A stretch of 64,000 bases of DNA from assembly GCA_905220665.1 (NCBI GenBank), contig CAJNAR010000006.1, positions 124,001 through 188,000 of the forward strand, given 5' to 3'. The notes under the pieces were generated by a model that saw only the letters and a program-made list of their open reading frames with translations, did not search any database and was not told where the DNA came from. The stretch comes from Albugo candida. Its lineage: Eukaryota > Oomycota > Peronosporomycetes > Albuginales > Albuginaceae. Below, one piece after another: positions 1,096-57,947 of the stretch. Each line of letters opens with the position of its first letter. Position 1 is the first letter of the stretch. The translations under genes were made by a program, and so were the position numbers.

Positions 1096-4000
1096 ATGGG
1101 ACAAAATGCCTCTAGTAGCCAAGAGCCTTTGGGCTCTACAGCTCCAGAAGATGAGAAATCACTACTATCACTTTCCAAACAGTCTAAACCCAGACATCTG
1201 GTTCCATTATCGCCTTATTTCCTCCCACTTTGCAATATTGCTAAAATTGGAGATCCAGCAACCGCAATGTCTGCTACATCGACAGATAGCAAAGACGCAG
1301 TTGAAAAGATCTTGGACTTTGACGAGTCAATACAATGCCTTCCAGAAGGTGCACAACAAATTATTGCTAGAATCCTTCCGCTTAGTCCTAAAGGTCTTTT
1401 TTCGCAGGTTTGATGTCGTCTTCCAACACGAGCGAGCTGCAAGATTTGATGGAGAGTACACTTCCAATGGATTCTGAGCAGGAGATGTTTCAGTATATTT
1501 CACGAGTGCTCTTCTCCAATCCAAAACTTTCGAATTTCTGTGAATCGTATCGGGATATGAGGAATGTGATACGGCCAGATGACCAAAAAGCTATACCTGG
1601 AGGTTTTGAGGCTCGGATCAGTTCTTATATCCAGCTTTTGCAAAATCTTTACCATCTTACGAAGAAGCAAAAGTACCATTATGAACAACGATCAGAACTA
1701 GCTATCTCCCATGCAAGCCTACAGCGCAAGATAGCCTCCCCACCGCTCCCCCTTCCAACGCAAGGATGTATCACATTGGGATGGGATCTCGCTATCTTTT
1801 TGATCCGATCAACTTGGATTGAGAATCCGGAAAAATATATCCAAGCTATTGACATGATAAAGGCAAACTTGAGGCCTTTAAAAGCTATGGCGTATTCAGA
1901 AACTTCCTACCTTTCTCCATCCGCTTCGAATGCATTTAGTGAGCTATCCGATTGCTTGGAAGATCTTATACACTCAGACACAGATGAAGTGAATGGGGAG
2001 ATGACCTTGAGATATTCTCTAACGATGTCAACGGCTGAAGCATTGGCCGAAGTCGGGGTCGCGCGAGGCTCTCTAGCAACTCTTGTATCTATGGTTCGAT
2101 GGCTACTCAAAAAACCAGTCGACAAATGTGTGAATATTTCGCCAAGCCTTTGCAAGCTCAGTACGTTGAAAGAGCAACCCATGTACGGTAAATGTGAATC
2201 ATTTGGTGAGCTTTATAGCTGTGGCCAGAATTCATACGGGGAATTAGGTCTTGGTGACGACATTGAGCGACATCAACTTACGAGCGTCCCGCTATGTGGA
2301 TGGGATCACATACGGCAAGTCGTGAGTGGGAATGAGATTCTGGCAATTCTGACATCTGACGGTGTGGTTCTGACCTGTGGCCTGAACAAAAGCGGTCAGT
2401 GCGGTCATGGGAATTTTGATGAGCGTGTGATGCTTCTGCGACCTATTCAGGCCTTACGCTCCCACCGAGTAAAGTACATCACCGCAAGCAATGGATGTGA
2501 GCATCTTCTCGCTATCACTGATAGTGGTCTGGCTTACTCTTGGGGATACAATGATCGTGGTCAGCTTGGTCATGAAAATGTCGGCAGCAAGTTGTATCTA
2601 CCCAAGCTCATTGAAAGCATTAAGGAGAAGAAAATGAAAAGTGCTGCAGTGAGTTATCATTCTAGTGCTTTGATATCGGAATCAGGCGAGCTATACACTT
2701 TTGGGATGAACGACTGCGGGCAACTCGGGCTGGATCATACTCAGCATCAATCAACGCCGCAATTGGTCAAGGCTTTACTCGGCCACCAAGTTAGTATGGT
2801 CAGTTGTGGTCTGTATCATATGGTATTATGTACCGCTAAAGGAGAACTATTCACGTGTGGTAAGAACGACTATGGACAATTGGGCTTGGGGCATAATAAA
2901 CAAGTGAAGACACCCACTCAGGTCGTACTTCCGAATGAATTGATTTGTTTTGTTGCATGTGGATACTATCACGCCATATCAATCACTTCGACCGGTTTGA
3001 CGTACTCGTTTGGACGAAATGATTATGGTCAGCTTGGAATCGGTTCTAAGATACATCAGAATATTCCTATTGCATTAACGATATCGTCAAACACGCACAT
3101 GGTTCATGCAGCTTGTGGGTGTTATCACACAGTGCTGATGTCGGACACGGGTCAGGTCTTCGTATTTGGTCGTAACAACAAGGGGCAACTGGGAAATCGT
3201 GGGAACACTGATTCTCTTTTGCCCGTTCCTTTGAAGGTGAGACCTGAGAAGAATATGCGGAGGTGTCTCCACATAGCGGCAGGGTTTTACACCACATCGC
3301 TGATAGTGGAACGAAAACGTGAGAATGATGAAGGCGATGCAGTCTTATTGAATGAGAATTGTATCACACCAATATGTGGTCGCGTGGATATCGATCGCTC
3401 AGGTGAAGCTGAAGGTCTAAGCAACTTTGGAACCATGTCAACGATGGGCGTGTCACTGTTTTGTGGGAAATGGTTTTACGAGGTTGAATTGATTACTTGT
3501 GGTCTCATTCAAATCGGGTGGATTGATAACTACTTTCAAGGAAGCTCAGATCAAGGAGAAGGTGTGGGTGATCATGAGCATTCCTGGTCTTATGACGGAA
3601 ATCGTCAGCGGAGGTGGAATAGCGGTTCCTCATCTTACGGTGACAAATGGAAGCCTGGAGACGTTATCGGATGCTTGTTGGATCTTGATTCGTGCGAAAT
3701 GACGTTTTTTCGCAACGGAATAAGTCTAGGTGTAGCATTTACAGATTTGAAGATCTCTTCGCATGAACCGAAATTAGGGCTGAGGCCAGGGATCAGTCTA
3801 GAGCGCGGTGAGATTGTCAGAATCAATTTGGGACATCAAGCATTTGCCTTCCCTCCAACAACTATTGCAGATTTTGACGGTGTAGCGAGAGGAATCCTTC
3901 TTTCCGCGCCTTCAGCTCTCATCAACTGTTTCACTTCTATTACCAGCTCAACATTGGAAGCTTCTCCAGATGCTCTGTATGGATCAGCAACAGTGATGGC

Positions 4001-7000
4001 TGGATCTCGTATATTTGTCATAGGAGGAAGCGTAGCTCCTGATGCTAAAAGCAGCAATATAGTTTGGGTGTACGACACAAAGACTCAGTCCTGGGATCGA
4101 TGGAGCGACTTTCCTCTCAATATCCGCCATCATCAAGCTGTTCTCATTGAAAATGCTTATATTCTCGTTTTGGGTGGTGAAGATCAATCAGCCAATTCTC
4201 GGCATATGCACACATACAAGTGCTCTGTTACGCGCAATGAAGACGGAAGTCTACCTCAGTGGGAACTGATTCAAGGATCGGCTACCGAATCGCTTCCAAC
4301 TTCCCGGGCATTTCATTGTGCAGCTGTTGTAGATGCTAGGCTCGACACTCTTGTACTCGTATACGGAGGCAGAAACGCTGATAACGCGATATTAGGCGAT
4401 GTCTGGTGTTTCTCACTGGACGACTTTACTTGGGCACGCTTTCCTTCATCGACGTTTTTGGATCCGGGTCCTCGAACAGGTTGCACACTGAGTGCTACGG
4501 GTGAATCCGTTTACTTGTTTGGTGGACTTGACCGAGATGATAATCTTCGAGCTGATTTATGGTGCTTTAATGTCTTTGATCGTGCCTGGTATTTGGTCCA
4601 TGATGATGACATCAATGCTCAAAACAGCGGAACGACTTCGACTATCGCCAATTTCGGGCATGGTTTTATTCCGGAGGCTCGCAAGAATTACAGTCTGGTG
4701 ACTGATATCGGAACTGTTTGGATCTTTGGAGGTCAGAACCAAGCAGATGAGTTTTTTTGTGACTTGTGGTCATATTCTGTGGCTTCGCAAAAGTGGAACG
4801 CAATCGAAATGCATTCAGAAGAGTGCAGAAAAATAAAATTGGGATCTGCTCGCATGCTCATAGAACGTGGAGTTGTCAATGCACTTTCGTGTGCATCCGA
4901 CAACAAATATTGTGGAGCAGATAGTCGAGATTATTTATATCTGATCGATTTGACTCAACAAAGCTTACCTGCTTACTCGATTTCCGCTTGTAGTTCACCC
5001 GTATATAAGACCAAAAATGGAGTTGCAGCTGGAAGATTCTCACATATAACTACGCTTCTGCGTTCACGAACAAGTACGCCTACGAACAATAGGAACACTT
5101 ACTATTGTGCATTGAAAACGCTCGACTCTGGAGTCTCGATTCTCTCCCATTTGGATCGACTCGCGGGAACGGATGTGCTCGTAGATGACACAGAGACTGT
5201 CCAATTGTCTCGATGCAGCTATCGATCTCTGTGTATTGATCCCAAAAAGAAGACTTTTGAAGCCCTTTTCGATCTCTTGTTATCTCTTAACTCATCCTTT
5301 TCAGAATGGAAATTGCTTGTTCGAGAACGTTCTGAGTCGATGATTCCATCTCAAGTCGTATTGGAGATACTGTATCCTCTATTTGTATGTCTACGGCTAT
5401 TGAAACTCAACCTCTATGAGCTCTCTCGTTGCTGTCCCGACACAATCAAAGCTGGCCTCTCAAAGGAAAGCGATACATCTCCGGCTAGAGTTCTCAACCT
5501 CATTCAGCTTGAGTTATTCAATATTATCGAGCATCCTGTCATGTTGCCAGCTGCTTTGTCCGATGTCACGTGGATGTGCACGGCAATTGAGCAGGAAAGC
5601 GCCTTTTGTATCTATCACGGCTTTGGATCTCTGTTTCCATCGCTGGCGGAAAGACTCGACGTTCTCAAATATTTTCTCGAAAAAGGGTCATCGAGTCCCA
5701 TCGACTTGGACTTTGATCCAAACTTTTGGGACGTCGAGAATGAAATTTTCACAAAAAAACAAACCCTTCTACCAATGCTCATGTCGTGCTTCACATCTCA
5801 CCGTATGCTTTTCCAGCTGATGAGCTATTCCGAAAGTAGCGCCGGGAACACGGCAAAAATGTCACGTTCACTGACAGACGTTACTCAAGGCCTTTTTGAG
5901 ACGTTGATGATCAACCTATGGCGTCAAACAACCGCTGTTATGGAAAAGTGGATGAGAGAAGCTCCAAAGGATACAACAAATTGTGCTGCGATTCTGGAAG
6001 AGCTGGAACAAGTCATTTTGTCCGATGAGTTCAAGGTACTCAACATATTGCTTCGCGCTAATATATTTTGGGTGTCGAGGTCTTTCGAAACAAGCTGGCA
6101 GACCGTACAATTTGTGATCACTAGGATTATCACCTATATTATCAATTTGATAGAAATGGTGAACAATGGCGCAGACAATATGGACAAGAGACTCTGTGCG
6201 TGGGTCATAAAGTCAAGCTTCTGTGGCAAAGTCCTTCCTTTCTTGATACTTAGCACTTTGTCGCTTCAAAATGTGCGAGATAATTTCCAAAGCATGGCTG
6301 GGACTATTTGGCCTTCAATCAAATGTCTTCTACTCGAGATTCAGGATGCGATTGAGGAAACCGATGCCGAATGTTTTGAAATGATTGTATGCGATGAAGA
6401 AAGATTTCGGGAAGGTACAAAGGAAGGTCTTTCATCTCCTAATGTTATGGTTTCTGAGGATCTCTCACACCTTCTGTTTGGACAACCATTAAAAGACGCC
6501 GTGCCATTACACCAAGTCTTGGACGCTTTGTGGATGAAGCAAACGGATCTTGTGTGCGATGCTGACAAGACTTTTGCAAGGATGTTGATACCATCCGAGC
6601 TAGAAATTCTATTTGGTACTGCCACGCTTATGGTGAGAGCATCCCAACTTCCACGCGACGAATTGCAAGAAAACGACCTGAGGACGCTCTTTTCCCCCAG
6701 CTGGATGATTTTATCCCAGCATATCTACCCTGAATCTGATAATTCACGAGAAGATCAAGTTGAGGAGGCTCAAGGAAGCACATCTGAAAGCACGGCAACG
6801 ACCTTCAGTCTTCGACCATTGCATATGAAAAACATTCATCACTCTATTGAAACAAGCTACTCCTGGCTTAAAGACTTGCGTAATATTTTAGCCTGGGCTG
6901 GCAGTCATTATGCGTCGGCTTTGGTAGCAAGCAATCGATCTCTAGTCGACTATGAGCTTATACAACGCTGGAGCAAGTCTCCTCTTTTTGTCGGAGGTTT

Positions 7001-10000
7001 GGAAAAAGATGGAATCGAAGAAACCGGAGCGAGTGATCTCGACAACATATACAATCGCTTTCTACGACAAATTGTAGAGAACGAAGGTAATGGGAAGAAA
7101 GTTTTGGAGAAAATACGCCTTGCACTCGATCTTGGAGGTATCGGTAAGGTCCCCACATCGATTAATCCAAAGCTTCAGGCCACGCGTTTAAGACGGCAGG
7201 ACAGTGTGGAAGCTGCACTTCAAAAAAGCGGTTCTTTTGAGGCTGTAGACCGCGCTGTCAGGTCTACTTTTGCAGTGCTATTGAAGCATACTCATTTAGG
7301 ATCCACTTCATCGGCTATGATCATGGATCAAACTATTTCCGAGAAACTTGTCGATTTGTGGCGAGCTTCTTTGCAGCTTCGGCGTTGGATTGTCAGAGAA
7401 CAACAGAAACTTGCCGCTACGATGAGGTTCGTGCAGATATACTTTCTTATATTCGCTTTCTTACACTGTTGTAGTGATAAGAAAGTGGGCTTGTCGGAGC
7501 CCGTCTCGAGAGAATATCAGCAGGAACTATACAACACAGTTTGCGAGCCGCTACTTTTACGAGCCAAATTGCTTCTAAAGTTTTCTCCCGCATCTTCCTC
7601 TTATTTATTTGATGAAAGTTCATCGTCCAAGACTTTGAAACAAGCGAGCGTCATACCAGGTATCTTGTCATGTCTCTCGTTGTTGAGTATTCCGGGTGTC
7701 TGATAGCGCCCTCTGACGTAGAAGCCGGACGTTCATTGACCGATACGGATTCGAATAATTTTGTCGGTGATTCAGAGTCTACAGAAGAAGACGAACGCAT
7801 ACAATCCGAAGTTTTTTCTTTCTTGCAACAGTCCTGGACACAAGAGCGCTTTTTTACGGATTCCAACGATCCTGTAGCCATCTCTGCAGATGTTTCTCAC
7901 CGAATGCAGCAGCTCCTGATAGTCAAGGGAGAACTCGCAGATAATCGTTTACTTGGTTTAGAGATATTTCACCAGCTTCTCGAAAGCACAAGTGATCCCA
8001 ACGCTCGAGAATTTATAATTTCTGCTTTGGCTGTTGCCTTCAAGCGCATTGAATTTTCTCGCAAATGTCCCACATCTTATCCAAGTTGTAGTTCGGATCC
8101 ACAAGCACTAGTATCTCAGCAAGATCACTCTTGTAGGATACAAAAGGTTCATTATCTAGCTGATTTGGAACTTATCGGAAGCTTACGCCACCAACGAATC
8201 TCTGATGAGTTTTTCCAAATTCTTTCCAGCTTGCTCGAAGCTTCAGTCAAACAGCTCGAAAGTCTCCATATTCTCAGTACAAGTAATGAAGATTTCAATA
8301 GTGCGTCTCGAGGTTTACAAGTCTGCAAACTCCGCGCTGCCATCCACGACATGCTATCAGTTCTAGATTTCTGCAGCTTACCATATCGGTCGGTAGATTG
8401 GGAAAAACTGGAGAAGATTGGTATCACTTCGCTGCTGAAGAAACTAGCAAACTGGAACACCTATGAAAGACAGATCAATTTAGCATCCGCTACGGACTCC
8501 GAAGACGATTCCATGCGCTCGCTACATTGTCCATTGCTTCCAGCAGCCACAGGTGCGAGGAATTCAAAGATATTGTGTGGAAGATATATTACGATCAAGA
8601 CCGACCTGCATAGGCTGACGCTTCTACACAGCCCGGAAGATGGTAAAAAGTCAGGAGGCTTTGCAATCTGTGATAAACCGTTCTCGAGAGGTCGATGGTT
8701 CTGGCAAGTATCTATTCAATCGCAATGCAAAGTTCCTGTCTTTATAGGAGTTACCAATTCGGCTATAGACCTCAACTCGTACAGAAATGGTAAAATGGTC
8801 GCTGAGAACAATTCTAGCGGAATCTACGCATTCCACGATCACTATATCGCATCGACATCACACCATCGCAGGACAGAAATGATGTACCCGATAGATGAAC
8901 AAGGATGTGGCGCGATACAGATTGTGTTAGATTGTGAAGAAGGACGGCTCGACTTTTACATGCGAGAAAAGCGATTTCAATCTCAGTCTTTGCATGATCT
9001 TTCCAATCAATCATTTCCAGACTCGTACTATGCTGTGGTCGGACTGGAAAATGCTCAAGTTGGCTGGGATCTCGCTCATTCAATCCCAGCAAAATTATGG
9101 GCAAACAGCATTGATTTTCGCTTTACGTCCCCGGTAATTGCAGGGGACCTCATCGCTGCTCCCTATCGTGGACAAAAGATGGGCTGGAGCTCGATATCCT
9201 GTAGACATTGCGTGATTGCTGGATCTGGAGACACTATCATCGCTGGTGTCGAACAGATGCAGGAAGAGCTATACGAGAACATCGTGCTGAGTCACACTTT
9301 CAAGAACGGTGACTTATTTTACATGGAAGTATATCCTATATCTGGTGGCTTCGATTCTAGAGTGTATCTTACATTTGACATCGTTGGCGATGACTCTTAT
9401 CAAACGACTCCCCATCTCGTCGATAAAATATCCAAAGGTAGAGAATTGGCCATCGATTGCTTACTCTCTGAAGTCGACAAGAAAACATGTCGCTTCGGGG
9501 TCCTTTTCAACTTCGGCAATGGCAATATAACGCGATATACATCGGATGGTAATGCTTGTGCAATTGCCCACATTGATCTGTCCGACCTGGAATCAAGCTA
9601 TCGACCATGTATAAAGATTCTGTTGAATGGAGCTATAATTCACACGGACACGCATCCAGCGATAGTGTACCCGAAAGCGGCAAATCTGGCAATGGAAAAC
9701 GCTACTTTGCATACAAGCTTAACGTCGTGTCCGAGCAAAATGGATATGCAAGCTGGTAAAAGGCTTGACATGATGATAGTTGAGTGCGATGGAGAAGAGA
9801 CAAACAGCTCCCATATGGCTAAAAATTGTCTTGTTGATGACCCAAGTGTATTTAGCTCGAACAAAAGCAGAAATGTTCATTTGATTTTGAAGCATCAGGT
9901 CAATACGCCTTTTTGTGTGAACTACCTCTCACTACGTGGACCAGGTTCAGGATATACGCATCCAGCTCAGCACATCCTCGTATTCATAACAAGTAGCAAA

Positions 10001-13000
10001 CCCATTTGTCAGGATTATGCTGAGTATGACGACTTCACGCCAGAGCAATTTGCTGCTCTACCATTCCCACCTACTGCTTCTTGCCAATTTCGACGCGATG
10101 AAAATCTTCCTGTCGCGTATATCATTATGGACGGCAGCTGCTGTCAGGTGAACAAGTCGTTGATGTACCCTGTGTCTGGGAGGTTTATTGTATGCAAACT
10201 CTTGACTGCTACGACGACTTCGTTCACACGATCAGCGATAGAAACTATCGATTTCGGATACATTGGAGTTTATGGAATCTTTGATGAAGATAATGGACCT
10301 GCCTACAGCGATGAAATAACGCCGGATTACTGTGGAGAATGCAAACGATCATCCATTGTTGGGCTCAGTTACAGCAAAAGAGACCGAGAAACAACGACAA
10401 TCTGCGCCTCGTGCTTTGATGATTTGCGAGGAATCGCCAGCATTCACGCTGATTCTGAACTCTTTGTTTCTGCCGGAGATATGGGCGAAAGTCCTCCGAC
10501 TACTTTGACACCGCGTAAAGCATGGCATGCGAAAATCTCGTCAATGTACGAAGCTTTAGAGTCGAGTCATGCAAGGATAACAGCGACTCAAAATGCAGGC
10601 AGTCTACCAAGCAGCAGCCTTAGTGGCCCTGAACAAAATAAGAAGGACTATTTTTGGTCTGGCACCTCTTCATCTACGTTTGAAGAATGCGAGATCTTTT
10701 CATGTGGCCAAAATAATTATGGTGAGCTTTGTTTGGGTCACTGCAATCCAACGAACAAGCTGGAGCACGCATCCTTTTTCTCCTACAAAAGCATTCAAAG
10801 CATTGCAGGAGGAAATGAAGTTCTTGTGGTTCTTATGAAAGATGGCGCAGTTTTTACTTGCGGCCTAAACAAAAGTGGTCAGTGTGGCACCGGAAACTTT
10901 GACGAACGCTTGATCGTTCCAAGTCCTATCCAATCTCTCAGCGGTATTCCAATTACGATGGTTGCAGCTTCTAATGGATGTGAGCATATGCTTGCGATCT
11001 CTCACGATGGCGCTGTCTATTCTTGGGGATACAATGATCGAGGTCAGCTTGGTCTGGGTACAACAGTGTCCAAGAGCCATACCCCACGCGTGATTGAGTC
11101 TTTACGTGAAAAGTACTTTATCACATTCGCTGCAGTGAGTTATCACCACAGTGCTGTAGTTTCAAACAATGGCGATCTCTTGACATTTGGAATGAATGAT
11201 AGTGGTCAGCTTGGGCTCGATCACGCGCAACATCAGCACACCCCTCAGCTAGTCGAGACACTCTCTAGCCAAAAAGTTTGTAAAGTTGCTTGTGGCCTGT
11301 ATCATACCGTGGTGATCGTCGATAATGGAGAAGTGTACTCTTTCGGGAAGAATGAATATGGCCAACTTGGTCTGTCTCACACGCAGAACACCAAAGTCCC
11401 AATGCTTGTCAAAATACCACCCGCTCCTCGAACGCCAATCTCAGATACGGTCAATAAGGCAGTCCAAGTCTATTGTGGATATTATCACACTGTTGGAATC
11501 CTGGAATGCGGTAAGGTGGTGACGTGGGGTCGAAATGATTATGGTCAGCTCGGAATCGGCAGCAAGGATCACAAAAGTGTTGCTCAATATGTTCCTCTTC
11601 CACTCACGTCTCGAGTTAAAAAAGCTTCCTGTGGCTGTTATCATACGCTCATACTTCTCGTAAATGGACGTGTTATGGTATTTGGTCGCAACAATAAAGG
11701 ACAATTGGGTGTTGCTTCCCGCTCTCTTCCCTCTGCCGACTTGCCACTACCAATCCCATTGCATCCATTATCATCCGATGAAGTGGTTTATGTTTCTGCT
11801 GGATTTTATTGCTCCTATATTCTCACAGGAAAGGAAGCAAGTGACCAAGTCCAAGATATATGTGGTGATCCATCGACGACTTCACCCGAAGAAATGACAG
11901 GTCGTGCTTTGAGAACTTCAGACAAACTATTTCAGGATCTGATGAAGCAAATGGATCAGTATTCGGAATGTATGCAAAAGCTGAACACAAACACATGCGC
12001 TAGTGAATACCCGGTCGTTGTTGCATCAAAAAGGATGAACGTCGCATCCGGTAGGACGCTCGCTTTGGTGAAATTATACAGCGCATCTTGGGCACTTGTT
12101 CAAGGACTAATGTATCAGTCTGTAAAGCTGGAAAATGAGACAACAAAAAAGACTGTCGGAGCCCAGAATCCCGTGTTGCTTTCTCTACTTGATTTTTTGT
12201 TGACCATCTTCCAGTCGTCAAAGTCTTTGCAATCTGCCAAGGCTTTAGAAACTCAGTCGTTGGTACGATTTTTAGAGGTCAAGTGTGAGGACGAAAAGGG
12301 AGGCGTGAGCAACTCTTGTTTCTCGTTTCGGAACGCTTCTCTAGGTCTCACAAGATGTTTGCTAACGCTCAAAAGTATCCCAAGTCTCTCATGTCCGACC
12401 CAAGCTTCATGGCTTCAGGATTTATGCCCTCAACTTCTCAACAATCAAGTGTTGTCGATTTTGCTTTATTGCGGCTCAATGAATGACGGGATCTGCTCGA
12501 TATTGGCTGCAAATAGCTCTGTGATTGCACACACATTATCTAATTTTGAATCCAATGACCTGACAACAGCAATGATCTCATTTCGTCTCGCGATGTTGCT
12601 ATTTCCTTTCCATTCCGTGATCGAAATCAACAATATTTATCGAGAGAAGACTTCGCGTCCGTCTGGCAACGTGCTGCATACATTGATTCTTTTGGTCGGA
12701 CGTCCCTTAATCACCCGGCCAAAGCTTTGTCATCATGAACTGGGTATTGAGTGTTGCATTACACATCCCTGCGAGAGATCTTCTTGTATGAAAAAGTCTT
12801 GTCGTACTTGGAGTGAAAATGTTCCGAATGCGTCTGAAGATCACACATTGGCACGCTTACTGGATCGCTATCATGTCGCTCTTGCAAAGTCTGATGAGGC
12901 TGTTGCATTACTCCGCTATATGACAACCATCCCTTCGTGGAAAGCTGCTGTGAACGAATCGGTGATCTTGGCTCTGCAGAAACAATGCAGGATTGATGAT

Positions 13001-16000
13001 ATGGTACACTCTATAGCCACTTACTACCTGCGACTACAAGACAACACAGCCAGCTACGAGGACGATAAGAGGGATGATGACACCATACGTCAAGCCGAGG
13101 TCACAGAAGTTAACAGAGATACTTCAGATGATGAGAAGCTCAGTAACGATGTCAATTTGGCTGGAAAAGAAGCTCTCAAACGCTTTGTGAAAGCCCGGGA
13201 AGCCCTTGATGATATTGCATGTATAATGGCTGCAGTCGCAATCTATGGTGGTCACTCCGAGTCCCTTCGTGAAGGATGTGCTGTCATCTCACCTGCAAAA
13301 GAACTCTCAACATCTAAAAGCTCTGTAGGAACCTTGAGCAACGTGGAATTGGATAAGACCACTCTTGAGCCTATGGCTACTATCTTACTTCCTGAGGCTG
13401 GAACAGGAAAGTCAAACCTTCAAACTGGAAAGACAAAACCCAACTATATCTTCAACGATGGAGTTGGTACTTGCAATATTTTCATGATGAGCACCGCCAG
13501 CAATATATCGAAACAAGTTCGCTTTCCTCTGAAGCAATTACGAGCTCTGGAAAAAATTCCACCCATGTTTTCTATCTTTGATGATATACAAACAGCTATA
13601 TCCTTACTATCGTCACTGAGCACGTTCCAGCTCCATCGTTACTCAGCTAACGGAGAAGAAAGCTATCCGGGAATGCCACAGCTTGAGCAGGGTCAGCTTG
13701 ATGTCCTTGCTCCTATTTGTGGAGAGTTCTTGGAGTCTGTACAAAATCAGCTACACTGGAGGTCCACGAAAGCCTTATACACGATATGCAAACAAGTGTC
13801 CTTGCCAATGAAAAGTGAGGAGCTATCAACACCGATTTCTGGATTGCTAAATAAGAAGATAATAAGCACTCTTGCTGCCATCATCAACGATGAAAGCCTA
13901 TTGCTAGGATCTAATAATATCTGTGATACGAATGAGAATCAGGACACATGCTGGCAAGGATCTCAATGCAAGGAAAGACTTGACAATCGCTGGCTCAATA
14001 CGCAGATCAGAAAAGTGTACCTGGGTGCTCAGAGAGCATTAGATTCTACCATAGATCATCATGAAATTAAGGTCAGAGATGCAGTCATGAAAAAGATGGA
14101 CGATGAGGACGCAATAAACTGGGGTCTTGATGCGATCCAGTCACCGAAAAAAGGCTATGAGCCTGCTTCAAAAAAGGGTAAGCCCCTGGTACAGCAGCAA
14201 TGTTCGCATGACCATACACCAGGGTTGGATCAACCAGATCAATCAACTTCCAATACCAGAATCACCATTCCAACTGGAGCGTGGGGTGTGTTGTATCCTC
14301 TACCACTTTTACAAGACGTAGATGGATCCACATCGGATGAAACTCCATTGAGCACAGCTCCATTTCCGCTGGTGACATCCGTAGTTCGCGTTGGACGGGC
14401 ACCAGATTCGTGTGATATGGTTATTAATGACAAAAGTGTAAGTGGAAGGCACTTCCACCTTCGACGCATCCACGGAAATGATGGGGAACAGTGTTTTGAG
14501 CTACAAGACTTTAGCAAGAATGGAAGTATCGTCAACGGTGTACGCGTCCACGGTACAAGTACCCGCATAAGCCCAGGAACGCGTATTTCAATAATACTAT
14601 CCCGTGGCGGCCTTGCAAGTTTTGAATTCCAAGTACGTGAGTCCGATAGCACGGGTCTTTTATCCATGGCAGATGCAGGAAGTCGCTTATCATTATCCAA
14701 TCCACTATTCCAGCGCATGCCACCTCCGACATTGATAGCCTCCGGAAGACAATCAAACGTGTACGATGGAGGAGGTAACAGTAGTGAGCTTCAGCACTCA
14801 GTTGGCACGGAAACAACCACGGCCTTTGATGGGAATCCATCGACTGCATATGAACCAAGAAGTCCTGCGCAATTACAAAATCGTGGGGCTAACGAAACAA
14901 TTACACAAGCTGCTACCGATGGAGCACGTGTTGGTGCAAGACGACAAAGTCTCAATCGGATAGATGCTTTCCGAAGTAGATTTACTTCCCAAGGACTGAG
15001 GTTGATAACCTCTGTCACGGAGAGTGATGTCCCACGTGCATTGGTCTCTCCTAATCCAGCGATTGATTCACCGAGGATGAGTGGCTTCAATTCACCTCGA
15101 TCTTCCATTTTCCAGATGCCAGGAACTCCTTCGGTGGGCTCACCTGCGGGAGGCACATGTACCAATACACCTACACTCCATGGTATTTTATCTCCTGCCT
15201 CTTATCAGCAGCACGAGAGCTCCGCTGCTTATGAAACAAATGCAAATACAAGTCCCCCATCGGCTTCAAATAGCTGTAGCGAGGAAGCAATGATCAATGA
15301 GGCTTTAAGAATGGTTTTGGGGAAAGAGAACCTTCCACGAGAAAAAGTACATGAAGTAGCCAAATCCCGAATCCCATACCTCGGTAGACTACGAACAATG
15401 CTTCCAATGTCACTCGGCAACAGCGAATCAGCAAACACAATCAGTTCTAGCAAGGAGAAATGCCAAATTGATTACACTGCACGCGCTGTTGAGTTACGGT
15501 CACGTGTTCACGATCAGTATGGATATCAAGTTGCATTCGAATACTGTGAGGAAGCGCTCGTGTGTTCAAATGGAGACCTGAGTGCTGCTTTTCTCCAGTT
15601 ACAGAGTGCAATCGAGGAAGTCACATCCCGACAGAAAGCCGTCACACCTCTCTCATTCAACTCATTCTATTTGGCTCAACTCTTGCACCGAGATGAGAAC
15701 ACCTGTACAGAGGCGCTGGCTGCAGCTGGTAATAATCTCAGCGACGCGCTACTCCTCCTTTTGAATCAAGACACATCACTCGTACGACAGCCCGCGGAGC
15801 TCAACATGGCACAGGCTATCAACTATTCAAGTAATAGACAATCTCCGGAAGATAATTATCTGAGGTATCAGGATCCTATGGAGGAGAATCCTTCGTATGT
15901 TCTGACCGAGTCGAGCAGTCTGATCGATATTGATGCATCGGTGGAGCCAGTACCAATACGTCGTGGCTGGACATCAACCAGACGAGATCCTTCCAAACGT

Positions 16001-19000
16001 TCAAAAGAGAATTCTCCCGTCAAGTTTTGGACTTGGCTTCAATGCAACGCTTCCGCAAATGAGACAATCGGTACCACGAGCTATTACGAGGCCCACATTG
16101 AGGAAATCAAAACTGGAACGTTTATGATGGCTGTGTATGCACGCAAGACTCTGCTTCATTTATTGAGACTGTGTGATGCTTCAGGATATAACGTTGAAGA
16201 AGACGTGTTTGCATCCTTCTCGACAGCTACATTTCGTCGACTTGTTTTGTCGATGCGAGAAGAACCTGAGAAACAGAAAGGAGATGTCGTATTGCAAACG
16301 CTGCAATCAATTCTTAAGAGAATGGTTTTGAAGGCTCTTGAAAACTCCTGTGGATGCAACTCTATGGTTTCCATACTGAAACAATCACAAGCAATCTCTA
16401 TTTTGATGTCAGAGATCGATGATTGCGATCCACGATCATCAATGTCAAAGTCGTTCATGATGCGTATGTTTGCATCTTTCCGGATGATGGAACAGTCAGA
16501 AAAGAACAAAAATACGACACAATGCATCGTGAAAGAACAGAAAGCACCGATTTCACAGCATTTATTCATTGACGCAATCCTGCATATCCTATCGAGGAGC
16601 TATTCTGATTCCAACCCGACAATGTTATGGGATTCAACCGGAGCAAGTATTTCTCTACAGAGAGAGCCTATTTACTGGAAAGGACCACTCACTCTCGAAT
16701 GTGGCCTGGATGTCGTTGTAGTCAATACACTTGATCGTTTATGGAGCCTTGCAGCACCTGATCCATTGCTTCAGTATCGCCATAAATGGAGGAATCAAAC
16801 GAACGGGAAGAATGATGAGAATTTGATCTGGATAAAGGGATCCTACGATAGTCATCTGACATTGTGGAGACCTGTTATTCCGTTTGATTTGACGTCGTCG
16901 TCATCCGCCGGAGGTAGGCACCAACAGCCTAGAACTACCGGACAGCACTTACTGGAAGATGAAAATAATTGGTACAGTCTTGGTGACATTCTCACTTGTA
17001 CTAATGAAGTTAGTGAAGCATCTCCCAAGACAGCAGTACTCATCGTATACGATCACCATGACGGTCTGCTAGCCTCCCCGCTTGGCTTCCATCGCATTGA
17101 TGTCACAGGAAAAGGCCTTCCTTTGTGTACATCGGACACCAGCCCTGAATTGTACAAGAAGCAGCAACGTTCAATATGGTGGCCAATTGCACCTCCTGGA
17201 TATATTTCACTAGGCTGCGTCGCAGGCACAAAGCACGAACCGCTCCTGTCTCCCAGTTGTGACTCGGTGCGATGCGTGAGGCGAGATCTCGTTCTCCAGT
17301 CGACTGAGACTCATTACGCCTATCATTCGAAACAAAATCACTTGGAAGGAGAAGAAGTCGATCAACGACCTAACATCGTCTTGCGGGTCACCCGTGAAGA
17401 TTTCGTTGGCGGAACAGTTTTTCCATCCTCCCTGGTCGCTGAAGACACAGCTGATTCTCAGTATCAACAAATCTCCGTGCTGAAGCTAAGCGAGGAAGAT
17501 AAAATTCTATGTGGTCCCGTGACTGTCAAATCGGTTTTGCAATTCGTCAAAGCTTATGTGTGCTGTAAGCACTTTGAAAGTAAGGAAGAAGAAGCGCAGA
17601 ATGACAAGGCGCCGTCTGCATTGGCTCATTCATTGTTTATATTGTTGAAGAAAGTCGTCACGGAATCAAATCCGGCTTCCGCTACTGTTGCAGTATGTGT
17701 GGTTCGAGCAATGATATCGGTGATAAGAAAAGGAGAGCAGTGGAACGATAAAGCTGGTCTCTTGTTCTGCCGATCAAAGATCATGAAGCTATATCAGGAA
17801 CAGGAAAATGGATTGATGGTCAATTCTCTATGTCAGGCATTGGTCGAACTACTTTTAACCGTTCAGGATCACAATCACGGAAAGGAGGTGGAAAGGTTGC
17901 AAGCCTGCACACGAAATTGCTCCAACTTGACGTCTCCGTACCGCTTCCAATTTTCTCGACAAGTGACCAACGAAATGCTAGTCAGCCATTCCTCCAAAAT
18001 CCTTGTGACAAGATACGCTGCTGAGGATGAGCGCAAATTCCTACTCGAGTATCATCCAGACCATCCATCCAGCGAAAAGAAGATCAAATACAACCTGGAG
18101 GAAGATTTTCATTCGTGTCGATTTGAAAACACACCCGAGTTGCGAGTTCTAATGCACGGGGAATTGAAAGCCGAAATTGTATATTACGAGTTGACCATAA
18201 TGGAATGGAAGGATGGAAGCGTTTTCACGGATGGTACTGAAAAGAGCGCTCATGGATTCCCTGTGTTTGCTCTTGGTTTCTCTGCAGTCGACTATGCGCT
18301 TGAGGGTCCATGTATCGGTATGAGGAGTCGATTTACAGCCGACGCAACCACACCATCTCGTTCCTACAGTTTCCTTCCTTTCAATTCCACGGTAAACACG
18401 TCGGATCCTCATGTAGATCAATCAAGATGGAATGATCAAGTGCCTCCTTCCATCACGACTGGAGATAACTTTGGTTGTGGTATCCGTCTCGATTCACAGG
18501 AGATCTTTTTCACCAAGAATGGGTATCTACTCGGAACCACCTTTTTCTCGGTCGAGCATCCATCTGCATTACATCCCACCATTTCGTGTAGCACCGATTG
18601 CAAGCTTCTGATCAATTTTGGCTCATTAAGTCATCAGAGTTCCACTCCTAACGATCACGAATCAGGATCAAATGGAGCGTTATTAGACGTAATCGACAGC
18701 GGCTGTGTGGATCCTGGTAGCCATATCCCCATGAATTTTCATTATCGATTCGGCTCGATGGACTTTGAAAACTTGATGGCTGCATTTGAATGGTATGAAC
18801 CTATCTATCAAGTCTACGGAATAATGAAAGCTATGCTGGGTCCAAAGTTGGAAGATTATCACAACAAGAGCGCGTGCAGTATGAATACGATAGACAGTAA
18901 GCTAGTCAAGCATCTACCTGATGAATTTATGTTGTCAGCGGACACTTTTCTTGCCGAAATAGCTGAAGATGTTTGTCTTCGAGTGGAAAGTAAACATCCT

Positions 19001-22000
19001 TACGATCTTGAACTCCAGGAGGCTTTTGTCAACATTCCTCTGGCAAGCTCTATACGCGTACGATTGAGCTCTTCATGTCGAACCGATCCATCACATTGTC
19101 TTCAAATTTTACAAGGCGGTGATACATCTGCAGAGTCTGATCTTGATGGAAGAGTCGTGCACACAGGCTCCACAAGCGTGGAGTCGGAAGTTCGAGCGTT
19201 TACCGGATCTTGTGGTGGTCAAGAAGTAATGATTGAAGGCGATCGTTTCATATGGCGATTCCCAGTACAATCAAACTTTCAAAGTCGTGTTGATCGTGTG
19301 AGGAAAGGTCCCTACCTGAGGCTTGAGAATCGAGACACAAGATTATCACTTACGCGAGACAAAGGGTGGCAAACTGCGATCGGTGTGGCGAGGTTTGACG
19401 GCGGTGTGCATATCTGGGAAATACGCATTTCGTTTGTCACTGCAAGCTCCAACATATTTTTGGGAATTGCTCGAAAGGATGTGAGATTAGATTCTTACCT
19501 TGGTAAAGATAATCGAGGCTGGGGATGGATAGGAAATCGGGCTCTTTGGCATAATGGCAGCAAACAACGTGGGACCTATGGAGAGAAATTTAAGAGCGGA
19601 GATCTCGTACGAATGACGCTCGATCTGAAACGAGGAACGTTATCTTTTGCGTTGAATGGAAAAGATTTGGGTATTGCTTTTGGGCCGGGGGGAACAGGCT
19701 CAAGACTGGATGGAGTATTTTATCCAGGTTTTGCACTTTACAACCAGCGCGATTGCATCGATCTAATCGGAGGCCATCGTGTCGATGATGGGCATGAGCT
19801 TGCAAGAACCCCCGGTCCTGGAATGACAGAAAACACGATGGAAGAAGGAGACACGGAGTTTTATAGTGATGAAGACGATCAGCTTGACAGTGAAGATTCC
19901 AGTTTACGACTTGAGGCAGCGACGGCATTGACCCAAATGGGGTTTCCATTAGATTGGTGTATGTACGCTCTTCGTCAACGTGATGATGATGTTGAGCAAG
20001 CTGCGGACTTTTTACTCGCGAATCTTCACGTGATGGATGGGATTATCAACGAAGAAATGGAAGATCAACGTCGCCGCCAACTTGGGTCGAATGAACGAGG
20101 AAATCGGGATATTGGTGATTCAGTGACATCAGCAGTGGGAGACTCGTCGATTGAATCGCACAACGCTGGCTCCGACGCAGAGGTCGTGGGAGAAGAAGAA
20201 CAAACTGATTCTGAAAATTGGGGAATCGCGTTTACTGCCGTGCCCGAATTCTCTCTCACTGGTCGTAAACTTTTAGCTGCCAGATACACTAAAAAGCTAC
20301 AGCAATTGCATTCGGATCAATCTGTCTTCACACTAGAGCACGATGAAGCGATTACTCGAATTGTCAATGAAGTCTGTGAAAGTCGAGCGGAAGGGCTTCT
20401 TAGTTGTGATCCCTTGCGTATGGCCCCTAAGGAGTTTTCTCCAACTGATGAGCATCTACGGAAATTTCGCTGCCTGGAGACGATATCACTATGTCAGCTT
20501 CAAAAGCGATTTCTAATTCTACGCAATTTCAACAGCAGACTGCAGACATCGCTCTCATTTGTCGACTTTATGGCCGAGTCAGAGAACTCAGTGCTTGTAA
20601 ATGGAATTCACTTTTTACGAGGTCTGATCTTTCAGCATGTCAAATTGACTTGGTGGCTTGGAGTTTTGCGTGAGCAACAAGCTCCGGTCTCCGCAAGGCC
20701 AGAAATTGAGATTGACCGACATCGTACCTTTGATTCAACCGAGCAATCCGACATCAAAGACACAGTGTTCTACCAGGCATTCACACAGCTTCATTGCATA
20801 CAGCCTTCCCTGTTGCGTGGTTCAGATCGAGCCTTTAAATGCCAATTTGCAGGCGAATTTGGTGATGACTTTGGTGGCCTGTATCGTGAATGTCTCGCAC
20901 AAGTAAGCTGTGAGCTACAGTCAAAAGCTTTACCGCTATTTCAACCATGTCCCAATGCTTACAATAGCACGGGTGAAAACCGAGAGCAATATGTTCCGAA
21001 TGTACAGGCGAGAAGCGACAATCAAAACATACAAATGAACGAGTTCCTTGGCAAGCTTATAGGAATTGCCATTCGCACGAAAACTCCTCTGGATCTGAAT
21101 CTGCCAACAGTGGTGTGGAAATTGCTTGTCGGAGAACCTGTTTGTCGACAGGACATTGAACAGATTCATCAAGGCTGCTTCCAGGTACAACGGCTAGAAA
21201 ACTACTGCTCAAACGAACGTACTGAACCTGTATTTGCTTTAGATTGTGGACACCATTCAAAACATCCAAGCTCATGGCATCACCGAGAGCATGTTTGACG
21301 AGATCGTTGATACAAACTTCACAGTGATTTCAAACACAAATGAAGTCGTTGAACTCGTGCCGGGTGGTGAAGATGTTAGAGTGACGTGGCAAGACAAGGA
21401 GATATATGCTCGCGCTGTAGAGAATCATCGCTTAAATGAATTCCGCCCGAGTTGTGATGACATATTACGTGGAATTGCGACGATTCTCCCGGCCAACACA
21501 TTATCCTTATTCACGTGGAAAGAGTTCGCAACACTTGTGTGTGGTAAAGCTACAGTTGATATCGATCTACTGCGACGACGGACGGTGTATGGAGACGGAT
21601 GCCAAGCGAACGATCCCCATATTGTCTACTTTTGGCAAATTCTGAGCGAGTTTACCGATGAACAAAAGTCTTCATTTCTTCGATTTGTTTGGTAAGAGTT
21701 GCTCCGGTTGCTGATGTTTCGACTCTGACAATGTGAATTTCTTCGCAGGGGTCGATCTCGCTTACCAACTCACGCAGCCGATTTCACACAAGATTTTAAA
21801 ATATCAGGTCTTCCAAAAGCGGCGATGAAACCCGACGCTTATCTTCCGGTCGCACATACATGTAAGCATCTTTCTCGACGAATATACCTCGAGATTGTAG
21901 CTAAAAGACGATCGTTTTGCGAAGGCTTCTTTTCGGTGGATTTGCCGGCGTACACTTCGAAAAAAGTTATGCACGAAAAACTGTTGTACGCAATCACACA

Positions 22001-22178
22001 TTGCCAATCCATTGATGCGGATAATACGACGCTAGCTCAGCGAGCGGGTCAAGGGATCAACTGGACAAACTTGAATGCGGCTACTGCATCAGAAGCGTCC
22101 TCGGCACCTGCATCAAGAGGTCTTTCATCGGACCCCACAGCCTCGAGGCCTACTACCACACAGAGTTTGGGACTTTAG
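1096..22178 (+). CDS. Giant multidomain HECT E3 ubiquitin ligase (RCC1/SPRY/Kelch/FHA/VPS62/UBA/HECT), about 6,932 aa
   Basis: Six exons read in phase: 1096-1348, 1408-7659, 7707-21184, 21243-21691, 21749-21861 and 21925-22178. They sum to 20,799 nt (6,932 codons plus stop). Domains in order, approximate residues: MGQNAS myristoylation-like start; RCC1 propeller 1 (349-720); SPRY (750-895); Kelch (940-1215); SPRY-like (2457-2596); CxxC...CxxC finger (3041-3078); RCC1 propeller 2 (3156-3543); FHA with GR..SGRH and NGS.VNG (4389-4477); UBA-like (4755-4857); VPS62/DUF946-like with WWPIAPPGY and VRCVRRDLV (5216-5369); SPRY (5659-5806); SPRY (6037-6196); UBA (6234-6275); HECT (6496-6932). The HECT lobe has LPVAHT-C-FFS with catalytic Cys6849, whose codon is split by the last intron. 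The family transfers ubiquitin through a cysteine thioester. RCC1 plus SPRY plus HECT recalls large HERC proteins (HERC1), but Kelch, FHA and VPS62 are additions. A ~45-residue S/T/A-rich tail follows the HECT fold. A 48-nt stop-free stretch at 7427-7474 may be a further intron (6,916 aa). Confidence 0.9.
7427..7474 (+). other. Candidate 48-nt in-frame intron within the HECT gene
   Basis: Between ATGAG and TGATAAG lies gttcgtgcag...ctgttgtag, a pyrimidine-rich 48-mer with GT-AG ends and no in-frame stop. Read through, it gives an out-of-character hydrophobic stretch (FVQIYFLIFAFLHCC) inside an otherwise soluble region. Removing it joins M-S-DKKVGLS in frame. Its length is typical of introns in this window. 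Confidence 0.6.
21862..21924 (+). other. 63-nt stop-free intron splitting the catalytic cysteine codon of the HECT gene
   Basis: The donor gtaagc follows ACAT and the acceptor gcgaag precedes gcttctttt. Splicing rebuilds T|GC as the Cys of HTCFFS, the conserved HECT active site. The intron is 63 nt (21 codons) with no in-frame stop, so a retained transcript would read through, keep a Cys codon (TGT) and insert 21 residues before FFS. The spliced form matches the family exactly, so this is called an intron although the unspliced frame is open. Confidence 0.85.
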
Positions 22179-22562: not shown

Positions 22563-25047
22563 CTATAATGCATACGATTTGTACTCAGTCATCCTTGCTT
22601 CAATCATACTAATGCTTACCTGTACAGAGAAAGAAACAAGAAAAGTCGAGGTGCACGGGCTGCACGTCCTCATAGCAGCCAGAATAAAAGCAGTGAGTAA
22701 TCGTTCCGATCCTACCAAAATAGGAATGAACAAACGCATCAACGAGGCACGAAACTTACCATTCAAATCCAAAAGAAAGCTATGTCTTGATATTCCTTCG
22801 ATCACGAATAATAACGGCAATAGAATACGGAATGTTGCTACCATTGCAGTGGGGCCGGACGAGCAGAAAAACTGGACCAAAAATGCATACCATAGGCAAA
22901 TCGGTGCCCATGGTGGAGCCCATGGTATCACGTGCTGCACCAGTAGGGGAAATGTGTACAGAAATAGGAAGCAGAATCCAACATAACGACGCATAAAGAG
23001 GGTGCACAGAGCAACACTGTGTACGTGAACCATCCAATAGCTTCCAACTCGATACAAGACCAGTAGTATGTCCCTTAATATTGCAAATAGCATCATCATG
23101 TGAGTTGAGGTCATTCTAACACATGGAACCAGAGAAGGCAGAGATCGATGGATTCCCTGAGTGAAAAGATAACGTCCACCCATTCTTGTATTTGTAATGC
23201 ACGAGATCATTCGAGTGCTCAGAGTTGATACATCTTGGATGATTCGATCACGCAGCTGCAATAAGCACGTGCTGATATACGTACGACTTGGTGTTGCGTC
23301 TGTCGAGAATGTCAGCTCTTTTTTTTCGTCCAAGGGCTCGCGAGCTGAGTTCAATTGACTGAGATGAATAAGCTCACTACCTCGCTGGCTACATGAGTCA
23401 CTTGATGTTCCGTACAAGTATTGCGATTCCCGTTTGTGATAATTCGCAGTAGCTTCCATAATAGACTCTGTGCAACCTTCTGCATTACCATGCTCCGGGA
23501 CAGTTGTAGCGCCAAATATACTGAGGGTCGAATGCAGCGAATCAAAATGTCCTGTGTTGGGCTCTAAACAACCAGCATGTGTAAGCCCCGCTGAAGGTGA
23601 TCCCAGAGGACCTGGACGATCTTGATTGGCAGCACCATCCTCTTGTATTGACTCCTCGCGCTCCTCTTTTCTTTGCCGCTCTTGTATATTCATTCGTGAA
23701 ATTATGCGAGAGCCTTTCTTTTTTAAACGCTCCGAATCAATTTCAGAGTCTTCTCCTACTTTTTTTGTTTCAGATTTGCATTCAACTGGTTTGGAGGTCT
23801 TTTTTGTATCTGTGCGCTTTTGTGCATCGTGTCGAATTTTTTCTCGAAAGATCTGGCGTACAGGTCTGTGGCTCTTTTGCGAGTTGGGGCTGGTGATGCA
23901 TTGAGTAGACCTAGAGTGTTTCGCGATATTCTTGCAAACTTCTAATCGATCACTTTTGTGAGCACTATGAGTTGTAGGCCCGGCCAAAGCAGATTCTGAG
24001 TTGTTCTCACGCTTCCGAAACTGTAATCCGGTATTTTGTAGCCCTGCTGGCATTGAGCTGTCAACAGCTCTTATAAATTTACTATCGCTTGCACACTGGC
24101 GCTTCTTATTGCTTTTGACAGAAGAACGTTCCTCAAGACCCGTTTTTTTGAGATTTTCCATATCTGGTCTTACTAAAGGTTGCGAAGCGATTACGTCGCG
24201 AGATTCTTGATAATGTTGAGAATTGAAATGCATGCCTCTCGTTTCATTTCTTGCTGGTTTTGAATTTGTACACACATATGATTTCGTAAATGCACGTCTA
24301 GTAGGCGTTTGGACCTGTTCCAGTGGTACAGATGTCTCATTCAGCTCCGCCAAACGAGAGGTTGTCTGAAACACTTTTGATTCAGCGGCGGGAGCATTGT
24401 AGGATAGAGTATCTCTCAAGAAGAGAGCCTGACGTCTTCCGCCCATCTGAGAAGTATCCCTAGACTTTAGATGATTGTCCTGCTGTCGACTAGTATCGAT
24501 GATTTCACTCAGTCCCGGAGGCGGTCGATGTCCGGGTGTTTCATAACTTCCTTTCCTTGGCGTTAATCGTTGGGTTGTATCACCAAAAAAAAGCGCTCTT
24601 TGTCCGCCAGCTGGCCCAAATGAGCGATAGGTATCGTTGTGAAATGCCTTCTGATCGCCTAATTCTCGATACCCTTTGGTAGTTCTAACTCGTCTTTCCA
24701 CTTGAGCATATTCTCCTTGGCTCCATGATGATAATACTCGACTTTCTTCTGATCGATCGATTGCAGGACCTTGGAGTTTTGTGGTGTAATCCATTTGACT
24801 AAAACTTGATGCAGTTGTCGCGTTTGCGTATAACGGAGAGAGACAGAATTCACTCGTCGCATGGACGTGAGCTGAGTGCCGGTCATTAGCGGCTCTAAAT
24901 TGTCAGACATTTTGTTAGCTTATTGCGATACTCTATGGCGTGAGATGCTTGCCTTCTCTCTGGAAAAATTTCATCCTTAAGCTCACCAGGTAGATAGAAA
25001 ACCACGTCATTTTGCTCTTCCGAATCTGAGTCACATTGACTCGACAT
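22563..25047 (-). CDS. Orphan multi-pass membrane protein with long basic, disordered N-terminal half
   Basis: No family was recognised. The model starts at the ATG at 25045-25047 (MSSQCDSDSEEQND), uses a GC-AG intron at 24895-24952 (AG|gcaagc...atttag), and continues from 24894 to 22563. The two exons sum to 2,427 nt (808 aa). A shorter reading would start at the ATG at 24792-24794. The N-terminal 500 residues are charged and Ser/Thr-rich, with two related motifs, GGQRALFFGDT and GGRRQALFLRDT. The last ~250 residues hold about four to six hydrophobic segments, including a tryptophan/proline-rich loop (PWAPPWAPICLW). A second intron, 48 nt and stop-free, is likely at 22712-22759 (gtaagt...ttggtag); splicing gives LDLNG-SERLL. 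The extreme C-terminus is uncertain because a good donor (CAG|gtaagc) precedes the last ~18 codons. A long soluble domain followed by a membrane bundle would suit an organelle or nuclear-envelope membrane protein, but this is inference. Confidence 0.6.
24895..24952 (-). other. Likely GC-AG intron in the orphan membrane-protein gene
   Basis: The minus-strand donor reads AGAAG|GCAAGC and the acceptor ACAATTTAG|AGCCGC. The intron is 58 nt, in the local size class. A GT donor upstream (CCTG|GTGAGC) joins the same acceptor but shifts the frame away from the long downstream ORF. Only the GC donor gives phase 2 to 2 and opens a continuous 808-codon frame. Confidence 0.55.
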
Positions 25048-57449: not shown

Positions 57450-57947
57450 CGTAGAGCTCCTGACCCACTCTGACTATGGTTTAAAATACCAGAATTAAAA
57501 AGGTATGAAACGCCTTATGACGATACAGAATTTGTGCGATTTGCAGGAACCTCTAGCATTACATTCATGGGTCCGACCACGCAGTGAGGTATATCGTGTT
57601 TATAGTGTGCTTTAATGGCAGAAACAATTGAGAATAATAAAACACAGCTTAGAATTCGAGGCTCCGAGCGTATAATTTGCATCGAGCAAGTGTTAAGAAT
57701 TCTTTATTAAATATGAGTACGAATTTCAATCTGAAAATGAACGCTCATTCGTAGGAAGTTTAAGCGACACAAAGCAACACAAAATCACGTTTGAATCATG
57801 TAACTAAACGGATCCTACGGATCCTATCGAATAGTATCACGATCTTTGCCACGCCTTTTCAGACATTTTTGGTGTCAGAAGGCATTTGGTGTGTCTATCC
57901 CGAGACCGTTTAGTTTTTTAATCTTACAAAATCGTGAGGTTGGCGAT
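57450..57947. promoter_or_regulatory. Divergent promoter region (ArfGAP-DENN / seven-repeat protein)
   Basis: About 500 bases between outward-facing genes. GCTCATTCGTAGGAAGTTT near 57743 matches the first half (GCTCATTYB) of the oomycete initiator, about 200 bases before the plus-strand ATG. A small direct repeat, ggatcctac/ggatcctat, lies near 57811-57828. The frame upstream of 57948 is open only to a TTG and is not taken as coding. Confidence 0.3.

Follow-up and report, generated by a model that had tools for sequence, protein, structure and literature searches.

A giant HECT-type protein with an FHA domain is conserved across oomycetes

RNF8 and CHFR are FHA-RING ligases, in which a phospho-reading FHA domain shares one chain with a ubiquitin ligase. 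To our knowledge, a built-in phosphothreonine (pThr) reader is not a known feature of HECT ligases. A locus of Albugo candida, located in the 64-kb window analyzed here (the whole stretch of 64,000 nt), raises the question of whether a single gene joins FHA and HECT domains and, if so, what the FHA domain would do in such a protein. A description of an FHA-HECT protein was not found in titles and abstract openings of the open-licence PMC papers among the matches listed, and an earlier notice is possible. In the accessible part of a 2026 review of HECT structures, FHA is named only as a UBR5 substrate (PMC13196369), and the terms FHA, oomycete and Phytophthora are absent from the accessible parts of two papers on HECT evolution (PMC2837046, PMC3712016).

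The initial annotation of the locus joined six exons (1096-1348, 1408-7659, 7707-21184, 21243-21691, 21749-21861 and 21925-22178), separated by five GT...AG introns of 47-63 nt each, into an open frame of 20,799 nt and 6,932 aa. This in-phase closure was reproduced exactly, but one 48-nt intron had been translated and one acceptor placed too early. The annotated A. candida protein P0001 (6,911 aa; 99% identical over the exon-3 query) lacks 16 residues of the 6,932-aa model from aa 2091 and five residues at approximately aa 2169. The former are encoded by an additional in-phase GT...AG intron that is skipped by the annotated protein. In an alignment of 23 near-full-length proteins (6,241-7,573 aa, P0001 included), the 16 columns are empty in every row, although three of these proteins (P0010, P0015 and P0028) also lack the flanking residues and say little at this point. 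The five-residue gap is explained by a later acceptor, the most likely end of the intron starting at 7660 being 7721 rather than 7706. The corrected model, also of 6,911 aa, differs from P0001 at 40 positions. Residues are numbered throughout according to the 6,932-aa model.

1096-22178, + strand: whole gene, corrected 7-exon model, 6,911 aa, matched to annotated A. candida P0001
1096-1348, 1408-7426, 7475-7659, 7722-21184, 21243-21691, 21749-21861, 21925-22178, + strand: corrected exons
7427-7474, + strand: additional 48-nt intron, translated in the earlier model

Several other open reading frames (ORFs) were observed in the window. One ORF at 56283-57449 (- strand) matches both ArfGAP (86.4 bits) and uDENN (42.1 bits) and is possibly an ArfGAP-DENN fusion; another at 57846-59648 (+ strand) has a match to PFU, a PLAA-type ubiquitin-binding domain (38.1 bits), and is a further gene of the ubiquitin system. 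A 1,190-aa ORF at 44053-47622 (- strand) carries a GRF zinc finger, DEAD and helicase C domains, and ORFs at 22566-24794 (- strand, 743 aa) and 30878-32860 (+ strand, 661 aa) have no Pfam match at E 0.001.

The giant protein contains the following features, in order from the N-terminus.

2208-3296, + strand: RLD1, first RCC1-like propeller, aa 352-714 (PF25390, 281.5 bits; cut-off 150)
3468-3836, + strand: SPRY1, aa 772-894 (PF00622, 83.7 bits; cut-off 26.3)
3984-4934, + strand: Kelch propeller, about aa 944-1260 (PF24681, 125.5 bits; cut-off 50)
8693-9052, + strand: SPRY2, aa 2498-2617 (PF00622, marginal at 26.5 bits against 26.3; piece scanned separately)
9170-9661, + strand: possible fifth, cryptic SPRY-like fold, about aa 2657-2820 (predicted fold)
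9764-10285, + strand: conserved block without a Pfam match, about aa 2855-3028 (also in P0068)
10331-10414, + strand: four-cysteine finger, weakly ZZ-like, aa 3044-3071 (C-x2-C...C-x2-C)
10679-11833, + strand: RLD2, second RCC1-like propeller, aa 3160-3544 (PF25390, 323.0 bits; cut-off 150)
14384-14593, + strand: FHA, aa 4395-4464 (PF00498, 45.4 bits; cut-off 20.7)
14861-15196, + strand: SP/TP-rich linker, aa 4554-4665 (five conserved S/T-P)
16697-17491, + strand: 'Vps62' block, best read as beta-tripod-like, about aa 5166-5430 (Pfam Vps62; predicted fold)
18437-18622, + strand: SPRY3, matched part aa 5746-5807 (PF00622, 40.0 bits; piece scanned separately)
19409-19750, + strand: SPRY4, aa 6070-6183 (PF00622, 62.1 bits; piece scanned separately)
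19919-20014, + strand: UBA, aa 6240-6271 (PF00627, 20.6 bits, below the cut-off of 22.4)
20906-22010, + strand: HECT, aa 6569-6877, over four exons (PF00632, 228.3 bits; cut-off 23.9)

The order of RCC1, SPRY, Kelch, FHA and HECT modules proposed earlier for one giant HECT ligase is thus recovered with Pfam matches above curated cut-offs; FHA, Vps62 and Kelch, whose profile matches the initial annotation had made the test of its architecture, were all found. Several Kelch repeat families match the Kelch region, in which the best Pfam stretch is aa 944-1151 and the end at about 1260 is an estimate. SPRY scored 83.7 and 116.7 bits in the main scan. The four SPRY-like units expected from the initial annotation correspond to four Pfam stretches, the second of them marginal, and a fifth is suggested by the predicted fold. 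Because AlphaFold modelled aa 2645-3095 poorly (mean pLDDT 51.4, pTM 0.39), use of that model was confined to its SPRY-like part. Of two proposed UBA-like units, only the C-terminal one is well supported (its M-G-F is kept in 23/23 orthologues), whereas a pair near aa 4765-4860 is poorly conserved. Inter-domain pieces scanned separately gave no further Pfam family above its cut-off, an NCBIfam scan gave nothing above its cut-offs, and no RING family appeared in the Pfam scans, which began after the N-terminal 85 residues.

Conservation differs among these modules. The most conserved part of the protein is the SPRY4 stretch, aa 6001-6200 (approximately 19202-19801), with an identity of 0.82-0.85 to 21 non-Albugo orthologues; the corresponding values are 0.70-0.74 for RLD1 and, among oomycetes, 0.67-0.74 for HECT.

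Three regions of the protein are less easily named. The VPS62/DUF946-like block of the initial annotation is matched by the Vps62 profile (30.1 bits in the main scan and 34.4 in a separate piece; cut-off 22.1), but over profile positions 113-255 of 541 only. A sequence search of this block against solved structures gave no match, and its predicted model, of middling quality (mean pLDDT 63.8, compared with 45-47 for the other four models; pTM 0.65), matches the solved structure 6fbm. The block is therefore best read as a beta-tripod-like domain rather than as VPS62 as such. The Vps62 label in plant VPS13 has been described as spurious, a misalignment with a beta-tripod fold, in the part of that study available to us (PMC7613979); plant VPS13M1/2 share the label with the oomycete protein, but they are lipid-transfer bridge proteins and not ligases. 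In the A. candida genome, the Vps62 profile has one match, at the gene described here. The block at aa 2855-3028 aligns with a block of P0068 (hhalign probability 97%); a DOC/APC10-like identity, considered by analogy with HERC2, had no Pfam support. In the finger, all four cysteines (two CxxC pairs) are present in 23/23 orthologues. Its family profile matched solved ZZ-type chains of MIB1 (E 0.0045) and HERC2 (E 0.049-0.075), Pfam ZZ matched 2 of 10 family members (best E 0.16), and the hhalign probability against the ZZ of fish HERC2 was only 2.2% (E 0.021).

How widely is this protein distributed? Among 66 matches at E <= 0.001, 41 proteins (P0001-P0041), many of them fragments, form one family. 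Organism names were available for 31 of the 41, and all are oomycetes, from the genera Albugo, Lagenidium, Pythium, Phytophthora, Plasmopara, Peronospora, Peronosclerospora, Bremia, Thraustotheca, Aphanomyces, Achlya and Saprolegnia. In databases, these proteins are named hypothetical, HERC1-like or HERC2-like. The architecture called unusual in the initial annotation does combine the domains listed, but it recurs across oomycetes and is not peculiar to Albugo. A family FHA profile, derived from 21 members of the alignment, matched 41/41 family proteins and 0/112 others (relatives taken from the best 120 of 183), and all 32 proteins recovered with the FHA-linker region as query belong to the family. 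The FHA and SP/TP-linker blocks are family-only among the proteins searched, a statement whose scope is that of the homologue searches, which detect proteins whose length is 0.55-1.75 times that of the query and which have short exact words in common with it.

We then considered the FHA domain itself. Residues G4398, R4399, S4414, H4417, N4440 and G4441 are invariant in 23/23 orthologues, and R4399, S4414, H4417 and N4440 are, we assume, the contact residues of the pThr pocket. The FHA module proposed earlier is therefore present with an intact, conserved pocket, and it would be expected to bind pThr. Three chains of solved structures matched at E <= 0.01. In two of these, the FHA chains of yeast MEK1 (E 0.0042) and DUN1 (E 0.0062), the pocket residues R, S, H and N line up with those of the oomycete protein, and the Arg at R4399 is retained. 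The best match, the adenylate cyclase-like 3gqs_A (E 6.8e-4), has Ser at this position, and FHA likeness alone is therefore no proof of pThr binding.

Downstream of the FHA domain, five sites (S4554-P, S4616-P, S4623-P, T4642-P and S4664-P) are each present in 23/23 orthologues within a poorly conserved, fast-evolving linker. The protein contains 58 S/T-P in total; those kept in >=90% of orthologues are 5/9 in the linker (aa 4486-4700) versus 6/49 elsewhere (Fisher p = 0.008) and, within the linker, 5/9 versus 4/43 for S/T not before Pro (p = 0.005), both p-values being optimistic, with bounds chosen after viewing the alignment and orthologues that are related. T4642 is the sole conserved Thr-Pro of the linker and lies approximately 180 residues from the FHA domain; the other four conserved Thr-Pro are in RLD2 (3294, 3347), HECT (6628) and the aa 2855-3028 block (2902).

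FHA domains are not known to read phosphoserine sites. Four of the five conserved linker sites being Ser-Pro, their conservation may reflect some regulation other than an FHA ligand. The FHA domain could accordingly be a recognition module only, which binds pThr on a target or adaptor while the SP/TP linker is regulated separately. Human HERC2 would then be the opposite case: according to the part of a paper available to us, it is bound by the FHA of RNF8 when phosphorylated at T4827, so that a large HERC and an FHA are already paired in trans (PMC6692442). The linker Thr-Pro, invariant in 23/23 and near enough to the FHA for binding in cis, speaks against a separate role, and we regard this reading as possible, albeit on the unlikely side.

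At the C-terminus, the spliced sequence matches PF00632 from position 4 to 302 of 306, and the full match appears once its three introns are taken out. Cys6849, which is at the catalytic position (in HTCFFS), is encoded by a codon split by the last intron (21862-21924). It is kept in 21/23 orthologues; the other two, P0010 and P0017, lack sequence there. The gene product is, from its sequence, most likely a HECT-type E3 ubiquitin ligase. Alternatively, a protein of this size might serve mainly as a scaffold, for partner assembly or at membranes, with its ligase role minor or lost: SPRY4 is better conserved than HECT (0.82-0.85 versus 0.67-0.74), and a tripod-like fold is common to pore-forming proteins, although a membrane role here would be an extrapolation. 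As the HECT domain is complete and strongly conserved, and no aligned orthologue with sequence at the site lacks the Cys, we find the scaffold reading improbable.

Nearly the whole gene is held by two long open frames, 1410-7703 and 7670-21298 (2,097 and 4,542 codons), the second of which contains, uninterrupted, the part from RLD2 to the start of HECT and has a chance probability of approximately 1e-95 by our own arithmetic (61/64 sense codons). Some database proteins begin or stop inside the gene (e.g., P0027 and P0034-P0039), but frames of this length, the single complete HECT domain restored by intron removal and the 23 near-full-length proteins that align over their entire length make it highly implausible that two or three adjoining genes were fused here by annotation.

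We further asked how the family relates to known ligases. Large HERC proteins have more than one RCC1-like domain and a HECT domain in one very large chain, as defined in the accessible part of a paper (PMC6692442). In this respect, animal HERC1/HERC2 and the oomycete family are alike, with two RLDs and HECT in a chain of approximately 6,900 aa here. HERC1 matches list SPRY and WD40 families, and HERC2 matches a ZZ finger, on the basis of Pfam accessions that we take to be SPRY, WD40 and ZZ families. Unlike the oomycete proteins, HERC1/HERC2 have no FHA, Kelch or Vps62 in their Pfam lists, among the matches listed. RNF8/CHFR share with the oomycete protein the combination of FHA and ligase, but the latter is of the HECT rather than the RING type.

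A HECT tree was built from 45 rows: 39 of 153 listed proteins, chosen by hand, and eight paralogues from the A. candida genome (L001-L008), minus P0109 and P0112, which were dropped for lack of a single HECT segment that was long enough. The ten family rows group together (100/100), and HERC1 and HERC2 group together (100/99) without family rows, so that the family HECT lies outside the HERC1/HERC2 clade; the deeper order is poorly supported, and L001 and P0106 carry a long-branch warning. Database names and the RLD-SPRY-propeller-RLD-HECT order had pointed to orthology with HERC1/HERC2, for which the tree gave no support.

In the A. candida genome, at least 23 FHA and at least 21 HECT matches were found, and by coordinates the gene described here is the only locus among them with both. 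A SPRY4 search of the genome returned SPRY4 itself and two weak matches (31-36% identity), and therefore no close second copy was seen. Of six HECT stretches outside the tree (L009-L014), five match the HECT profile (best 270.6 bits). Other HECT matches of this genome lie in very long open frames of 5,072, 4,652, 3,551, 2,377 and 2,189 codons. These matches are as follows.

C156:23746-24672: HECT match
C148:347156-348337: HECT match
C156:144568-145383: HECT match
C164:406399-407244: HECT match
C148:521593-522489: HECT match

Two proteins outside the family share parts of its plan. P0067 of the thraustochytrid Hondaea fermentalgiana, named HERC2 in the database, has RLD, Vps62/tripod (32 bits), pre-SPRY4 (26), SPRY4 (129), pre-HECT and HECT (301) matches to family profiles in the same C-terminal order, but no match to the FHA, SP/TP-linker or Kelch family profiles; its Pfam list includes accessions that are presumably SH3 families. 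The JGI protein P0068 shares RLD, the aa 2855-3028 block, SPRY, pre-HECT and HECT, the last being the strongest HECT match outside the family among the matches listed (372 bits), but does not match the FHA, linker, Vps62 or Kelch family profiles. Its Pfam list does include Kelch families, and Kelch was not retained as an oomycete-only feature. As these proteins share parts in the same order, parts of the domain plan probably predate oomycetes.

Starting from the gene model, the domains, the conserved residues and the spread of the family among the proteins found, we infer ligase activity, pThr binding, a kinase and all substrates as follows. We consider it fairly probable that the protein is a HECT E3 of large-HERC-like design, conserved in oomycetes, whose FHA would read pThr. 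The C-terminal HECT would pass on ubiquitin via Cys6849; docking surfaces would come from four, probably five, SPRY-type units, two RCC1-type units and the Kelch propeller, and the conserved SPRY4-UBA-HECT end would be the core. Recruitment or activity would become kinase-dependent through pThr reading by the FHA, and the SP/TP cluster, 90-200 residues past it, would probably be phosphorylated by a proline-directed kinase, with pT4642 as a candidate ligand for the FHA in cis or for that of another copy. The phospho-regulated hub suggested in the initial annotation would fit the conserved FHA and SP/TP cluster. A more specific switch is conceivable, though we hold it doubtful: a proline-directed kinase would phosphorylate T4642 and nearby Ser-Pro sites, the FHA of the same or a second copy would clamp pT4642, and the chain would rearrange, setting free the docking propellers and the SPRY4-UBA-HECT core or drawing them together.

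Oomycetes include major crop pathogens, and this giant putative enzyme has been kept across them. With no animal match listed that has an equal domain set, the protein would open the oomycete ubiquitin system to direct tests, for which the FHA arginine, the invariant Thr-Pro and the HECT cysteine each offer a single-residue target. If the phospho-switch is true, it would unite within a single chain the FHA-phosphothreonine partnership that links RNF8 and HERC2 in animals, and would represent an oomycete wiring of kinase signalling to ubiquitin.
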